Assembly (NCBI RefSeq): GCF_000063445.1
Contig: NC_009464.1
Coordinates: 62,001 to 126,000 of the forward strand
Direction of reading: 5' to 3'
Length of the DNA: 64,000 nucleotides
Origin: Methanocella arvoryzae MRE50
GTDB lineage: Archaea > Halobacteriota > Methanocellia > Methanocellales > Methanocellaceae
Part shown: one piece after another, positions 5,197 through 47,095 of the stretch
Layout of the letters: each line of letters begins with the position of its first letter
Numbering within the stretch: the first letter of the stretch is position 1
Position numbers and translations under genes: made by a program
The notes under the pieces: generated by a model
What the model was told of the DNA's origin: nothing
Seen by the model: the letters and a program-made list of their open reading frames with translations, nothing else
Databases searched by the model: none

Positions 5197-6339
5197 ATGA
5201 AGACGCGAAAAATGCTAATGCTTGCGATAATGTTGACCGTTTTAATGGCAGGCATCACTATTTCTGTTTTTGCAGATGCTGATACGAATAAAAATGCAAA
5301 TAAAAACAGCGATAAAAAAGCTGAAAATAACTCCGGCAAAAATTCTGGCAACGGCAATAGTAACGGCAATAGCAATAACAATAGCAATAGTAACGGCAAT
5401 AGTAACGGCAATAGCAATAACAATAGCAATAGTAACGGCATCGGCAACGGCAATAGTAACGGCAATGGCAACGGCAATAGCAATAGCAATAGCACTAACA
5501 ATAGCAATAGCAATAATAACGGCAACTCCGGAAACGGCGAGCTTAAGACGCACTCCAATAATGGGGCAGGCAACTCTTCTGGACAGCAGAACGATAAAGC
5601 TCAGCCTGGCAAGAGCGACAAAATCAAGGTCGGCAACCTCCACAAGCCTGTGAAGAACGGTACTGGCTCAAGTGCCGGTGTTTCTGCGACAGCCCCTGTA
5701 ATTAGCGGTATGCCGGCCGCAGATCAAAAGGGCCAGAAAGAGAAAGTAAAGGCAGACAAAGCCCTGGCCGATCACAAGATCAAGGCCTCTGTCAAGCATC
5801 TCAATATCTACATCAAGCTGGTGAGCAAGAGCAAGCTTTCTGACAGTGAAAAAGCGCTTCTGATCAGCCAGGCCGAGGAAAACCTGGCCTGGTTCATGCA
5901 GATGAACCAGGATGTCCAGACCGCGACGATGCCTGAACTGGTTCATAACATCGCTACTGACGTAGACATGCACTCAGATATACTAGAGTCTGACATTAAA
6001 AGGAATGCCGGCTTGCTTACGTCTGACTCGATCGATCAGAAGATCGCAGCCGCTCGCGACGTCTCAGCGCTGGCTGAGCAAAAGATCGCAGCTGCCGGTC
6101 TGGATGCTGACACGACCTTAAAACTGAACCGGCTTCTGGCCGACTACAATGGGCACATCGACGCCGCAGCTCAGCACACTGAGGCAGCAAAGGCTAACTT
6201 CAACAACATCACCTCTCCGGTCGATTCTGATCACTATTACAACGCAGGATATGCTGAACTGCAGCAGGCAGAAAAGGAGCTGAACCTGGCTTATGCGGAC
6301 CTCAAAGAACTTTACCGCATACTGCTTGGCGCTCGTTAG
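5197..6339 (+). CDS. secreted Asn/Gly/Ser-repeat protein with helical C-terminal domain
   Basis: 380 residues. Signal peptide (MKTRKMLMLAIMLTVLMAGI to VFADA), then about residues 33-115 composed almost only of Asn, Ser and Gly in SNGNSNNN-type units, then a basic linker. From about 190 to the end is a helical domain (IKASVKHLNIYIKLVSKS to LNLAYADLKELYRILLGAR) with charged heptads. The helical part resembles DUF5667-like surface domains of methanogens, but I am not sure. The low-complexity segment is encoded by in-frame tandem repeats (see the repeat entry), so length variation between strains is likely. A long ORF on the other strand rich in Leu is purely the shadow of these repeats. Confidence 0.75.
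   Translation: MKTRKMLMLAIMLTVLMAGITISVFADADTNKNANKNSDKKAENNSGKNSGNGNSNGNSNNNSNSNGNSNGNSNNNSNSNGIGNGNSNGNGNGNSNSNSTNNSNSNNNGNSGNGELKTHSNNGAGNSSGQQNDKAQPGKSDKIKVGNLHKPVKNGTGSSAGVSATAPVISGMPAADQKGQKEKVKADKALADHKIKASVKHLNIYIKLVSKSKLSDSEKALLISQAEENLAWFMQMNQDVQTATMPELVHNIATDVDMHSDILESDIKRNAGLLTSDSIDQKIAAARDVSALAEQKIAAAGLDADTTLKLNRLLADYNGHIDAAAQHTEAAKANFNNITSPVDSDHYYNAGYAELQQAEKELNLAYADLKELYRILLGAR
5345..5524 (+). repeat. coding tandem repeats of 6- and 12-bp AACGGCAATAGT-type units
   Basis: The codons AAC GGC AAT AGT/AGC repeat in phase and encode N-G-N-S units. A longer block (AATAGTAACGGC... then AATAACAATAGC) occurs twice in tandem near 5365-5440. It lies wholly within the surface-protein gene and keeps the frame, as expected from slippage or recombination within a coding microsatellite. 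Confidence 0.85.
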
Positions 6340-7447: not shown

Positions 7448-7582
7448 ACTGTTGGTGGAATCCCGACATACCAAGATCGGCCTTTGAGCCGGTTAGCTTG
7501 TTTAAAATGCAAACGCTGTGCTGTGCTATCCACTATTACAGGGATAATCGTGAACAGTTGTCTCTGTGTGGGTGAACGTACA

Positions 7583-7865
7583 CGAACGCTGCGCTGTGCC
7601 AATCCTCACAGATGCCACAGATTCTGATTGATTCCACAGATTCCTCTGCTGAATCCACGGATTACTACACGATATCACAGAAGGAATACTCTAATACTAT
7701 TCGAACACCGATGCAATCATAAGACAATCAATCAGAATATTTTTTATTTATCTTTGGAGTCGGTCAGAATCATCAGATTCTGCGTCATCTGTGCTATCCA
7801 TAAGGAATCTGTGGATTCTGTTTCAATCCGTGGAATCTGTGAGGCTTTGCACAGCGCAGCGTTCG
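7583..7865. repeat. palindromic intergenic element (terminal arm + ACAGATT arm)
   Basis: Left arm 7583-7645 and right arm 7803-7865 are imperfect inverted copies with a shared centre at 7724 (7583+7865 equals 7645+7803). Each arm begins CGAACGCTGCGCTGTGC, then carries two or three CACAGATT-like units. The arms also resemble those of the element at 30771-31395. The spacer (7646-7802) is AT-rich and holds no convincing gene. Decayed extra copies of the terminal motif flank it (about 7504-7525 and 7893-7966), so the whole gap 7448-8022 is repeat-derived. No transposase is present. Confidence 0.85.
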
Positions 7866-8022
7866 ACATGCTGTCTCACCATACCAGAGCAACCAGAGAA
7901 CGCACTACACAGCGTTCGTCTTGCTATCTCACCGCACACAAGCAATCATAAACGCACTGCGCATCGTTTAATATTCACTAGCATGTCTGTCAGTATTGAA
8001 AAAAGGGAAGCTGAACACGTGT

Positions 8023-10530: not shown

Positions 10531-10623
10531 GGGAAGTCGGGGAGGTCGGGGTTTCAGAGGTGCCGGGAGGTCAGAGAGGACTTTCAAGCTGGGAGGTTGG
10601 GGAGGTTCGGGAGGTCGGGAGGG
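10531..10623 (+). repeat. G-rich GGAGGTC repeat (single arm)
   Basis: About 93 bp of imperfect GGGAGGTCGG-type units on the plus strand, containing CTTTCAAGCTGGGAGG. Nearly the same core appears at 21064-21077 and, inverted, at 21211-21224. It is one arm of the family seen as full palindromes at 21027-21259 and 30959-31203. It lies in the gap 10370-10815 between the DUF2193 gene and tRNA-Thr; apart from this and the tRNA promoter I see nothing there. ORFs across it are artefacts. Confidence 0.75.
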
Positions 10624-17202: not shown

Positions 17203-17320
17203 CCGTGTATCCACCCTACTGACGACCATTACGGGCTGCGCGGATAAGCCCAATCCTGAGAAATATCACGGGGAGAACATCATTCGGACCGCGCCTGGCA
17301 GTTGTTGTCATGTTCGCCTT

Positions 17321-17350
17321 AGAGAACGCCTGCTAAAGCAGGTGTTCTCT
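17321..17350. repeat. 14-bp-stem hairpin
   Basis: AGAGAACGCCTGCT, AA, AGCAGGTGTTCTCT: a 30-nt near-perfect inverted repeat, with one G-U pair if transcribed. It lies in the 307-bp gap 17203-17509, just before the small palindrome at 17366. The GCCTGC core recalls the larger hairpin at 31405-31447. Confidence 0.7.
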
Positions 17351-17365
17351 GTTGCGATCTGCAAA

Positions 17366-17408
17366 CGATCGCTGCGCTGTGCCAGAAACACAGATAACGC
17401 AGCGATCG
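17366..17408. repeat. minimal copy of the CGATCGCTGCG palindrome
   Basis: CGATCGCTGCG (17366-17376) and CGCAGCGATCG (17398-17408) form a perfect 11-bp stem. The loop holds CTGTG and CACAG that pair again. The left arm continues GCTGTGCC exactly as at 30771, so this is the terminal layer of the large element with a 21-nt centre in place of hundreds of bases. Confidence 0.85.
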
Positions 17409-20241: not shown

Positions 20242-21015
20242 ATGTTAAAACAGGGGCGCCAGGTCAGGCAGAGGGCTACCTCGGAATTCGAAGGCCAGTC
20301 CGGGAGAGCGCATGAGCTGAACTCTGGAGCAGGTGATGCCCTGTCGAAAAACCTGAAGTATCTCTCGCCAGGCACTTCCTATGCCTTGCTTATCCGGCAC
20401 GCTGAGCGTCCGAACTTCAGCATGCTCAACTTCAGCAACGATACCCCTATCACTGAAAAAGGCCTCGAGGACTCCGTCAGTCTCGGAAACTGGCTGCGGG
20501 GCCAGCACCTCACGGGATTGTATTCTAGCCCCGTCCGCCGGTGCATGCAGACCTGCGAAGGTATCCGGCAGGGGGCAAATCTCGAGCACCTGCCCATCGC
20601 TTCCCGGCCTCGCATAGGCGAACCGGGGTCGTTCATCGCCAACCCCCTCGTCGTGTTCTTCTATTTTCTGACGTCGGATATGTCGATGGTCATCCGGAAA
20701 TTCATCGCTAAGGGCAGGTTGTGGGGCTTTACCCCCTTGAGAGAGGGGAGCGTCGGGATACTGAACGACCTTCTCGCCGACTTATCAGTGGAAAATACCC
20801 GGAACCTGTACGTCACTCACGATGCGGTGCTGGCCCCCTTGATCAGCTATTTTACTGGCCAGAAATTCGGGGATACGGACTGGATCAATTTTCTGGACGG
20901 CGTTTTCATAGCGGTGAAAGACGGAGAAGTGCGGCTGCTCTGGAACGGCAGGGAATATTACATCGACAGGGAATTATTGGCGTTCCATGAACAATCTGGG
21001 TCCGGGAGGTATTGA
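20242..21015 (+). CDS. histidine phosphatase superfamily protein
   Basis: 257 residues. SYALLIRHAERPNF is the RHG/RHE catalytic signature. ITEKGLEDSVSLGNWLRGQHLTGLYSSPVRRCMQTCEGI follows as in phosphoglycerate-mutase-like phosphatases, and LYVTHDAVLAPLIS supplies the second catalytic His. The first 40 residues are basic and unlike the family, so the true start may be later; the GTG at 20188 is unlikely. A long middle insertion (FFYFLTSDMSMVIRKFIAKGRLWGF) lies between the cap and the last core strand. The last codons run into the G-rich repeat, so the C-terminus may have been altered. Substrate unknown. Confidence 0.8.
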   Translation: MLKQGRQVRQRATSEFEGQSGRAHELNSGAGDALSKNLKYLSPGTSYALLIRHAERPNFSMLNFSNDTPITEKGLEDSVSLGNWLRGQHLTGLYSSPVRRCMQTCEGIRQGANLEHLPIASRPRIGEPGSFIANPLVVFFYFLTSDMSMVIRKFIAKGRLWGFTPLREGSVGILNDLLADLSVENTRNLYVTHDAVLAPLISYFTGQKFGDTDWINFLDGVFIAVKDGEVRLLWNGREYYIDRELLAFHEQSGSGRY

Positions 21016-21026
21016 GAGGTCGGAGG

Positions 21027-21259
21027 GGAGGTCGGAGAGGTTCACGGAGTTCAAAGAGGAAACGTTCAAGCTGGGAGTTCAGGGAGTTCATGGAGGTCAG
21101 AGAGGAGGTTATGTGAGGTACCCGGAGGCCAGAGAGAATTAACCTAAAAAATCCTCCCAAACCTTTCCACACTCTCCAACCTCCTCTCAGACCTCTCCGC
21201 CCTCTCAAACCTCCCAGCCTGAAAACCCTCCCCCTCCTCCCGGGAACTCCCCGACCTCC
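21027..21259. repeat. G-rich/C-rich palindrome (GGAGGTC layer)
   Basis: The left half is plus-strand G-rich (GGAGGTCGG 21027-21035, TTCAAGCTGGGAG 21065-21077, AGAGAGGAGGTT 21099-21110). The right half is C-rich with matching inverted blocks at 21251-21259, 21212-21224 and 21178-21189. All three pairs share one centre near 21144, so this is one imperfect inverted repeat. It fills the gap 21016-21359 between the phosphatase and alaX; beyond about 21270 is the alaX promoter. G-runs could form quadruplexes on either strand. Confidence 0.85.
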
Positions 21260-30494: not shown

Positions 30495-30725
30495 ATGGTC
30501 AATATCAAGAACGTGACATTAAACGATCCGCAGTTCACCATTGAAAAACAGTGCGACCGGTGCCTTAACGTGCTCTACTTTTCGGAAGCCGTGCTGACCG
30601 ACGTGGAGACCGATACCGAAGGCAACGTCATCCGCTCGTCAATCATCTGCCCGATCTGCGGTAACGTTATTGTCCTGTACTCCAGAAGCGTGGATACACA
30701 GGATTTTGTAGTTGATCAGGCTTGA
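30495..30725 (+). CDS. small zinc-ribbon protein
   Basis: 76 residues from ATG 30495: MVNIKNVTLNDPQFTIEKQC, with CDRC at 19-22 region and CPIC near 55, a four-Cys zinc ribbon interrupted by a beta segment (LYFSEAVLTDVETDTEGNVIRSSI). GGTGATC two nt before the ATG is a near-perfect SD and decides this start over the upstream ones. It may bind nucleic acid or a protein partner. No family recognised. It sits just left of the large palindrome. Confidence 0.65.
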   Translation: MVNIKNVTLNDPQFTIEKQCDRCLNVLYFSEAVLTDVETDTEGNVIRSSIICPICGNVIVLYSRSVDTQDFVVDQA

Positions 30726-30770
30726 GAGTCTGACAAAGTCATTTTGCCCGGATTCGGTGAGACAGCAAGA

Positions 30771-31395
30771 CGATCGCTGCGCTGTGCCAGGGTCACAGAT
30801 TTAACAGATTGTACAGATTGCACAGATGAAGACAATAGATGTTCTTCTCCATATATCGGATTATGATTCCCGGTAAAAGTGGCCATCATGATGGGGTAAT
30901 CTGACCAATACTTCAATTATAATCGCCTCATTTTCCGCCTCTACCGGAGTTATCTCGTCCTCCCGGACCTCTGTACCTCTTGACCTCCCTTTCTTTAAAG
31001 TTCCTCAAGGACCTCGGCGACCTCCCCCACCACCTCCTTTCCTCCCTTGCCTCCTTTTACTCGGGATTGTCGGGGATCGCATGAACCGGCAAAGATTCAG
31101 AGGTGATGGAGGCACCGGAGGCACGGAGGCAGGTCAGGGAGGTAAATGGAGGTCAGGGAGGACTTAAAAAAGGGAGGTCGGGGAGGTATAGAGGTCCGGG
31201 AGGGAGGAACTGAACCGGACAGACTAGAAACGGGAAATACCCTCCCCTACTATCATTAGCAACACATCATCTGGCAACTGGAGAAGAGCCACAATAGATA
31301 AATCGGTAAGGGCTGTTTTTACCAGTCTATTCGACGAGCATCTGTGCAATCTGTAAAATCTGTACAATCTGCGTCCAGGCACAGCGCAGCGATCG
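30771..31395. repeat. 625-bp nested palindrome (all three repeat layers)
   Basis: Outer arms 30771-30828 and 31339-31395 are inverted copies: CGATCGCTGCGCTGTGCC, then three or four ACAGATT units, ending GCACAGATG. Inner arms are C-rich on the left (from CCTCCCGGACCTCT at 30959) and G-rich on the right (ending at 31203). They pair about the same centre near 31083, shown by 30771+31395=62166 and 30959+31203=62162. It fills most of the 879-bp gene-free stretch 30726-31604. No transposase, no convincing ORF. Nothing else is seen between 30829 and 30957 or 31448 and 31604. Confidence 0.9.
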
Positions 31396-31404
31396 TAATC
31401 GCAT

Positions 31405-31447
31405 CGCCCGCGTCGGACGCCTGCAATTGCAGGCGTCCTGGCGGGCG
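31405..31447. repeat. GC-rich double palindrome beside the large element
   Basis: A perfect 24-bp palindrome (GGACGCCTGCAA and its complement, 31415-31438) is flanked by CGCCCGC (31405-31411) and GCGGGCG (31441-31447), giving one long hairpin of 19 bp. It starts 10 bp after the right end of the 625-bp element. Confidence 0.85.
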
Positions 31448-31604
31448 AACTTATGGTATAAGATCTTACTCTTTCTCCAATAGGAAGTATTAGTTCCTTA
31501 TTGTATAGTGAAACGAATTAATAGACAGTCTGTTTGAAATCAACGTGCTTTAAAAATGGGATAGGGGAATTGCAGTAATTCCCAAAAATTTTACTGTAAC
31601 TTAT

Positions 31605-31925
31605 TTATGCCGTACCAGCCTGTTGCTCGACTCGATCGCTCAGGATCTGGATCAGGGCTCTGTAGTCCTGGTTAGGCATTTCGGTCTCAGTGTCAAGTAT
31701 TTTTAGCGTATAGAGGACGATCTTGGCGCCTCTCTCAGACAGGTGATATCCGTCCCGGTCCTTGTTGAGGATGCCTGCCGTCAGCAGCGTCTTGAGCAGG
31801 CGGTTCAGGATGCCCGGATTCAGCTCTGTCTCAAACATAATATCGGTGAATTTGGTTTTCCCCTTGCAGATGGTAAACAGTACGTCCATCGTCCCCACGT
31901 ATGACAGGGTCTTCAATATTTCCAT
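31605..31925 (-). CDS. winged-helix transcriptional regulator
   Basis: 106 residues: ILKTLSYVGTMDVLFTICKGKTKFTDIMFETELNPGILNRLLKTLLTAGILNKDRDGYHLSERGAKIVLY is a winged helix of HxlR/ArsR-like archaeal type, followed by a short helix (MPNQDYRALIQILSDRVEQ) for dimerisation. Soluble, no ligand domain. GGAGGAAATGAG gives a strong SD. The target is unknown. Its 3' end faces the palindrome region. The 283 bp upstream (31926-32208) hold only its AT-rich promoter region. Confidence 0.82.
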   Translation of the reverse strand: MEILKTLSYVGTMDVLFTICKGKTKFTDIMFETELNPGILNRLLKTLLTAGILNKDRDGYHLSERGAKIVLYTLKILDTETEMPNQDYRALIQILSDRVEQQAGTA

Positions 31926-45495: not shown

Positions 45496-46803
45496 ATGGA
45501 CAGTAAAATCAAGGCCAGGCAGATAATCGTGCTCGCAGTAGGCATGTTTATCTTTACCTTAGGGTTCGGAGTCATCATCCCTGTCATGCCCTACTATGCC
45601 AACAACCTGGGGGCAACGGCTCTCGATCTCGGCCTGCTGATGGCGACTTTCTCGGCGATGCAGTTCGTCTGTGCTCCTGTATGGGGTGCCATCTCTGACA
45701 GGATCGGCCGGAAGCCGGTGATGATGATCGGCTTGACAGGGTTTGGATTAGCTTTTACTGTAACAGGCCTGTCGTCAGAACCCGCAGCTCTGGCGATCTC
45801 CGAAGTGATCGGCCACTGGACTGGGCTGTCACCGCATATCGGCGTTCTGTTTATCTCCGAGGTGATCGGAGGCACGCTGTCCTCCGGCATCTGGCCTGCC
45901 ACGCTCGCCTTCATTGCCGATATCACGAAGCCTGAAGAGCGTGGCAACCTCATGGGGCAGATGGGGGCTGCCTCAGGGCTTGGAGTTATTATAGGGCCTG
46001 CTATTTCGGGGTTCCTGACCTCGTGGAGCCTTACCCTGCCCTTCTTCGCCACCGCCGGCATCGGGTTCCTGACTGCAGTACTCGCCTACCTGCTCCTGCC
46101 TGAATCCCGGGTGCCAGGGCAGCAGCCGGAAGTAGTAAAAAAAGTCTCCATGCTCTCGGCGATTAAGACCTCTCTTGGCTTTATCTTCATACTGACCATG
46201 CTGATCAGCTTCGCCGGCGCCATGATCGACGGCACCTTCGGCTATTTCCTCATGGGCAAATTCGGCCTGTCCGACCAGCCTGGCCCTGTGCCACTCCTGT
46301 TCTGGACAGTGCAGATGACCGGCCCCGGAGTGATGGGCGTCGTCTTCGCCTTCATGGGCATCACCGGCGTCGTCTGCCAGGGCCTCCTCGTCGGAAAAGC
46401 GATCAGCACCCTCGGAGAGCAGAAGACCATCATCGCCGGGCTCATCATCTACAGCGCAGGCATCATCGCCATTTACTTCTCAGTGGGCATCGTCACCCTG
46501 GCGCTCTTCACCTGCCTCATCGAAGTGGGCTTCGGCCTCATCTTCCCCAGCCTCAACACGTTAGTATCAAAGCGCACCGACCCCGACCGCCAGGGCGAAA
46601 TGCTCGGCGTCATGGGCTCCTTCAACAGTTTAGGCCGAGTCATAGGACCGCCGGCTGGTGGTCTGATGTTTGCAGTCCACATTGGGCTGCCCTACTTCGT
46701 ATCAGGCATCCTCGGGTTCATTGCTGCGGGAGTCATGGCTATGCTAACGAGAGCCGAAAAACGGAAAGCAGAGATACTGCCGACTAGTGTAGTAAAAACA
46801 TAA
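45496..46803 (+). CDS. MFS exporter, TetA-like DHA1 family
   Basis: 435 residues, about 12 membrane helices. VGMFIFTLGFGVIIPVMPYYANNLGATALDLGLLMATFSAMQFVCAPVWGAISDRIGRKPVMMIGL includes motif A; GLGVIIGPAISGFL is motif C, marking a proton-coupled exporter. A long loop between TM6 and TM7 (ESRVPGQQPEVVKKVSML) and an extended external segment after TM7 are visible. Substrates are unpredictable (drugs, sugars). An earlier start is possible, but ATG 45496 with the basic lead MDSKIKARQ fits. The 35-bp tandem array begins 20 nt after the stop. Confidence 0.88.
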   Translation: MDSKIKARQIIVLAVGMFIFTLGFGVIIPVMPYYANNLGATALDLGLLMATFSAMQFVCAPVWGAISDRIGRKPVMMIGLTGFGLAFTVTGLSSEPAALAISEVIGHWTGLSPHIGVLFISEVIGGTLSSGIWPATLAFIADITKPEERGNLMGQMGAASGLGVIIGPAISGFLTSWSLTLPFFATAGIGFLTAVLAYLLLPESRVPGQQPEVVKKVSMLSAIKTSLGFIFILTMLISFAGAMIDGTFGYFLMGKFGLSDQPGPVPLLFWTVQMTGPGVMGVVFAFMGITGVVCQGLLVGKAISTLGEQKTIIAGLIIYSAGIIAIYFSVGIVTLALFTCLIEVGFGLIFPSLNTLVSKRTDPDRQGEMLGVMGSFNSLGRVIGPPAGGLMFAVHIGLPYFVSGILGFIAAGVMAMLTRAEKRKAEILPTSVVKT

Positions 46804-46823
46804 ACGATGGCTGGGCATGGGCA

Positions 46824-47029
46824 TTCACCACAGAGGCACAGAGGGACACAGAGAATGGTTCACCACAGAGGCACAGAGGGACACAGAGAACGGTTCACCA
46901 CAGAGGCACAGAGGGACACAGAGAACGGTTCACCACAGAGGCACAGAGGGACACAGAGAACGGTTCACCACAGAGGCACAGAGGGACACAGAGAACGGTT
47001 CACCACAGAGGCACAGAGGGACACAGAGA
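46824..47029 (+). repeat. 35-bp tandem array, six copies
   Basis: Copies of TTCACCACAGAGGCACAGAG plus 15 further bases start at 46824, 46859, 46894, 46929, 46964 and 46999, exactly 35 bp apart and nearly identical. The sequence belongs to the widespread CACCACAGAGG type of intergenic repeat. There are no spacers, so this is not a CRISPR array. The ORFs read through it are artefacts of the repeat. Confidence 0.95.
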
Positions 47030-47073
47030 CTTACTATATAACTGATTATGTACCTGCCCAATTATAGGATAAT

Positions 47074-47095
47074 CTCTGTGAGCCTCTGTGGTGAA
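47074..47095 (-). repeat. inverted partial copy closing the 35-bp array
   Basis: CTCTGTGAGCCTCTGTGGTG at 47074-47093 is the reverse complement of the array core. With the forward copies it makes the whole block 46824-47095 an inverted-ended unit. The gap 46804-47143 holds nothing else. Confidence 0.85.

Follow-up and report, generated by a model that had tools for sequence, protein, structure and literature searches.

The locus between 30770 and 31396 of the window, a 64,000-nucleotide stretch of the Methanocella arvoryzae MRE50 genome, looks like a single long palindrome built of three concentric layers, and it raises the question of whether one element of unprecedented design, or several ordinary ones, could have given rise to it. 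The window corresponds to C1:62001-126000, the host genome being one contig (C1) of 3,179,916 bp; positions without a contig label refer to the window. The evidence presented below leaves us with little doubt that two non-autonomous transposable elements are nested here, an outer one, termed A, and an inner one, termed B, inserted into it. No relevant literature was found on these repeat units, on transposons of this species or on nested MITEs in methanogens.

Structure and coding content of the palindrome

The palindrome itself is real, far beyond chance expectation. Aligned with the reverse complement of the right half, the left half scored 288, compared with 144.7 ± 8.8 in 300 shuffled sequences (maximum 171.5), and the segment 30770-31396 folded as RNA reached -309 kcal/mol (z = -17.9). 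The outer arms, 30770-30828 and 31339-31396, pair through the inverted repeats I1, I3 and I4, each of 22-38 nt and with a complementarity of 87-95%, whereas the C-rich and G-rich inner arms (30959-30998 and 31164-31203) pair over 40 nt with a complementarity of 75%. The preliminary description of the locus also saw no convincing coding frame, and indeed no open reading frame exceeds ~52 codons between the flanking genes. It placed the limits at 30771-31395; the palindrome arms do lie there, but the mobile unit reaches from ~30717 to 31532 and includes a second, perfect hairpin (31415-31438).

The outer element A and its copies in the host genome

With BLAST, 137 matches to the palindrome region were obtained in the host genome. 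In many of them query positions 5-101 adjoin ~551-730 with an overlap of ~10 bp, the outer arms being joined by a short loop, and many copies of A are devoid of everything from 30841 to 31290. Family A was delineated from nine aligned copies and longer extracts. Its members are non-coding, measure 141 to ~490 bp where uninterrupted, start with CAGGCTGTCTCATAATTC and end with GAATTATGAGACAGCCTG, forming inverted ends of 18 bp around a CAGATT-repeat hairpin. A pattern search for these ends yielded 22 matches at 15 host loci and none with the reversed-pattern control. Exact 4-bp target duplications (CTTG, TAAG, CTCT and others) flank A at six of the 11 scorable loci (P ~1.6e-12).

In the window, profile matches, end alignments and comparison with other copies place A, as a short variant interrupted by B, at 30717-31532 on the forward strand. 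Its right end reads CGAATTAATAGACAGTCTG, whereas the left end is degraded and the boundary at 30717 is presumed; a 4-bp target duplication is not visible at this locus. Without B and its duplication, this copy would measure ~357 bp, and it is similar to the short variant L041 (353 bp). The A profile matches this copy twice, with model 153-253 at 30739-30840 and with model 244-485 at 31290-31528, and the overlap of the two matches (model 244-253) is what a duplicated target is expected to leave. Inverted repeats and other copies define both arms of the A hairpin on the forward strand, the left (30770-30828) consisting of CGATCGCTGCGCTGTGCC plus ACAGATTNN nonamers and the right lying at 31339-31396. 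A second hairpin (31405-31445, forward strand; inverted repeat I9), with the perfect core GGACGCCTGCAA/TTGCAGGCGTCC, is kept in other A copies. With B taken out, a ~170-bp hairpin remains, as in those copies.

The ends of A are also those of an IS1182-family element in a congener (G001), which is bounded by CAGGCTGTACCATAATTC and CAGGTTGTCTCATAATTG and encodes a transposase above the IS1182 cut-off (415 bits). Thus A has the properties of a MITE with IS1182-family ends, being short, non-coding and multi-copy, with terminal inverted repeats that match an autonomous element, in the congener, and with 4-bp target duplications; it differs in that no autonomous partner was found in the host and in its CAGATT-repeat interior, which is unrelated to the insertion sequence. 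A protein search of the host genome for relatives of the G001 transposase gave none, and all matches to the IS1182 model there fell under the cut-off, the copies fetched having no A-type ends. In the absence of a full IS1182 transposase from the host, A looks orphaned: the family is probably an orphan, unless its mover escaped recognition here, and the congener suggests that an IS1182 transposase was its former mover. We also considered A as a MITE of the 1.4-kb ISH3-like transposase elements found in its arms, and rejected this pairing, as the ends of those elements differ (CAGTATCC) and they bear their own 5-6-bp duplications inside A.

Other sequences related to A were recorded. In G001 (contig C200, L107 366-513), a 148-bp MITE with A's ends, a different interior and a CAAG duplication lies within a GCCAAG-type repeat. 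The window itself contains, at 17309-17402, a fragment that matches two parts of the A model (77-148 and 316-409) and is a relative in truncated or rearranged form. Nested insertion is common in the host genome, with A copies lying within GCAAAG- and GCCAAG-type palindromic repeats and insertion sequences lying within A.

The inner element B and its candidate ISL3 partners

The sequence missing from the other A copies has ends and a target duplication of its own. B (30840-31290, forward strand, 451 bp) is a MITE-like element located in the loop of the A hairpin, with the ends TGTTCTTCTCCA and TGGAGAAGAGCC, which match those of ISL3 elements and form an inverted pair, (G)GYTCTTCTCCA, of 11-12 bp with one mismatch. 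The 8-bp sequence ACAATAGA, present once in uninterrupted A elements, forms a perfect pair around B on the forward strand, at 30832-30839, where the match runs on to a ninth base, and at 31291-31298. The three concentric layers proposed in the preliminary description are therefore not those of one element: its view of a non-autonomous mobile element had the right kind, but two such elements are present, one nested in the other. Between B's ends lies a GGAGGTC/GACCTCC palindrome (30959-31203, forward strand), recognised as an inverted repeat and found at other loci, including some without B's ends (e.g., C1:1805689-1805947). Further GGAGGTC-type repeat arrays resembling it occur in the window at 10543-10580 and 20992-21138.

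The left part of B is found at three loci in total, and the other two begin at the same base of B (at C1:2365687 and C1:479073). The right end is missing from the copy at C1:2365308-2365687; in the copy near C1:479000 it is short, and a duplication is not clearly recognisable. The B-type end motif GGYTCTTCTCCA gave 11 matches in the host genome versus one in the control. At five of the 11 lies a complete insertion sequence, 1313 or 1324 bp in length and in every case with an exact 8-bp duplication, and two 402-aa transposases, one tested from each type, belong to the ISL3 family (NCBIfam 334-337 bits, cut-off 180; Pfam DDE_Tnp_ISL3). B thus displays terminal inverted repeats, a target duplication and ends common to autonomous elements of the same genome, as expected of a MITE with ISL3-family ends, and the resident ISL3 transposases presumably moved it, although past the 12-bp ends its subterminal resemblance to them is weak. 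It departs from such MITEs in that its left part occurs at three loci only and in its GGAGGTC palindrome interior, absent from the ISL3 elements.

Gene neighbourhood and comparison with relatives

The insert lies between two convergent genes, one for a small Cys-rich protein (30498-30725, forward strand) and one for a winged-helix protein (31605-31925, reverse strand; Pfam HTH_45). Both have orthologues in G002, a genome of the same family, where they are found together with the orthologue of a DUF62-like gene. The gap between the convergent genes is 7 bp in G002 versus 879 bp in the window, so the whole insert is lineage-specific; G002 has the same gene order and no insert. At its presumed left end, A runs over the stop codon of the Cys-rich gene, and the product of this gene is 10 residues shorter than its G002 counterpart. 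The preliminary description had proposed a search for further copies: these exist within the host, with A-type ends at 15 loci and the left part of B at two besides this one, but a DNA search for A and B found none in the phylum outside the host (59 genomes, three of them from the same family).

The neighbourhood also bears on whether the locus could be a host site, serving chromosome organisation, as had been suggested, or acting as a terminator or other regulatory site. Its intergenic position and stable hairpins would suit such a role, but across 28 loci the orientation of neighbouring genes is unbiased (nine pairs --, seven ++, seven convergent and five divergent), the same gene gap occurs in G002 without the insert, and A and B DNA is missing from the 59 other genomes, those of the family included. 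The absence of orientation bias led us to reject a terminator or any orientation-dependent role, and we consider a host site of any kind highly improbable.

A second suggestion, a very large structured RNA, would make the feature a single molecule of ~625 nt with three concentric helices, retained for its structure. The fold is very stable, for the whole feature (z = -17.9) and for the A hairpin folded alone (z = -15). Against this, two element boundaries run through the proposed RNA, its inner layers are missing from other A copies, no Rfam match was obtained, and neither A nor B was found in the 59 other genomes of the phylum. Compensatory changes in the arms were assessed in 12 host-genome copies of the outer hairpin: double-sided changes numbered 1, against a shuffle mean of 1.1, and the covariation score equalled the shuffle mean, in a test of limited power given that 40 of the 54 pairs are invariant. 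Most of the variation falls in the right arm, in the two-base spacers that separate its ACAGATT units, and it often disrupts the pairing. No compensatory changes beyond chance are thus seen in the arms, which argues against a structured RNA, and we regard this explanation as scarcely credible.

The CAGATT hairpin in other contexts

The hairpin carried by A is not confined to A. CGCTGCGCTGTGC with a CAGATT hairpin is common to A, to a g2 group of ~250-bp hairpins and to a g3 group with other flanks. The window contains a second CAGATT hairpin (7512-7968), which belongs to the longer g2 group and shares the CGCTGCGCTGTGC caps; A-type ends were not found in it. The g3 hairpins L049, L050 and L051 (near C1:2174900, 608050 and 355400) are flanked by ACTTTTTGGACA/TGTCCAAAAAGT-like inverted sequences, and this group is perhaps a third MITE family.

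The recurrence of this hairpin kernel in no fewer than three settings, A, g2 and g3, speaks for a REPIN-like or IS200-like origin, in which a Y1 transposase would have moved the kernel and A's ends would later have trapped it. Like bacterial REPINs and REP elements, these hairpins consist of inverted short-repeat pairs, are scattered between genes and are targets of specific insertion sequences (PMC1525189, PMC3116915). Unlike Y1-moved elements, which have neither inverted transposon ends nor target duplications, A has both and moves as a unit with them. Such an origin appears unlikely to us; it concerns the kernel only and is compatible with the nested insertion of A and B.

The ACAGATTNN nonamer array extends well beyond the host, with at least 119 stretches in many bacterial phyla, tandem copies often reading CCACAGATTACACAGATT.... 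Among the 80 stretches examined (L131-L210), from these at least 119, 27 have an inverted partner within 1.5 kb, against an expectation that we estimate at less than one; many of the remaining stretches have tandem repeats but no inverted partner, and may be coding sequence. We found no published description of this cross-phylum hairpin motif. Only tentatively, and with the odds against it, do we suggest that tandem 7-9-mer hairpins (of the ACAGATTNN, GGAGGTC and GCAAAGG types) may be an unrecognised class of modules, caught inside unrelated MITEs and preferentially targeted by specific insertion sequences.

Two other repeats of the window were recorded. At 46789-47095, TTCACCACAGAGGCACAGAGGGA... 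is repeated in tandem about six times, in 35-bp copies, and also occurs once in inverted orientation (47073-47095), as another hairpin repeat type (CACAGAGG); the tandem 6/12/18-bp repeats at 5305-5549 (GGCAACGGCAATAGTAAC) are probably a low-complexity Asn/Ser/Gly coding stretch.

An ISH3-like insertion sequence within CAGATT hairpins

The ISH3-like element is 1392 bp long, is present in five host copies and encodes a 373-aa transposase whose best NCBIfam match is ISH3, under the cut-off. All five copies (L033, C1:951103-952494; L043, C1:237719-239110; L045, C1:2643479-2644870; L294, C1:1859877-1861268; L295, C1:2123402-2124793) sit in CAGATT hairpins, belonging either to A or to g2, and are flanked by duplications of 5-6 bp, and a diverged relative (L044, C1:1265861-1267271; 378 aa, ends CAGTAGTTCC) lies within an A arm. 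Two of the copies have an identical junction, and the five therefore represent at least four independent sites. By our rough estimate CAGATT hairpins occupy ~0.2-0.3% of the host genome, and the location of all copies in so small a fraction points to what is apparently a strong target preference. REP-specific insertion sequences such as ISPpu9 and ISPsy8 have been described in bacteria (PMC1525189); the ISH3-like element resembles them in being found solely inside hairpin repeats, and differs in its transposase family (DDE, ISH3-like), its archaeal host and its CAGATT hairpin target. In the same five copies, GTATGAGACAGCCTC at the transposase start codon includes ~13 bases identical to the right end of A (ATTATGAGACAGCCTG).

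Discussion

Sequential transposition offers the most economical account of the locus, and it is carried by the element boundaries, the duplications, the copies of A free of B and the short gene gap in the relative. A, a MITE with IS1182-type ends, would have inserted in the convergent gap, next to the Cys-rich stop codon, bringing with it a hairpin of ACAGATTNN nonamers with CGATCGCTGCGCTGTGCC caps. Later, B, a MITE with ISL3-type ends and a GGAGGTC palindrome, would have entered the loop of this hairpin and duplicated 8 bp. Insertion into the short loop of a palindrome preserves its arms and its approximate centre, which accounts for the look of concentric layers: the common centre noted previously does exist approximately, but it arises from the insertion of one element within another and not from a single design. 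The feature as a whole would have no host function.

A and B are new MITE-like families of an already known kind. A seemingly unprecedented structure is accounted for by ordinary nested transposition, a false lead is removed, and MITE-like families are described in a Methanocella genome, each with a candidate for its autonomous partner. Of more use is a by-product of the analysis, an archaeal insertion sequence that apparently has a strong preference for long intergenic hairpins, in parallel to the REP-specific elements of bacteria; together with the nonamer hairpins shared across phyla, this hairpin-targeting element is worth a separate study.
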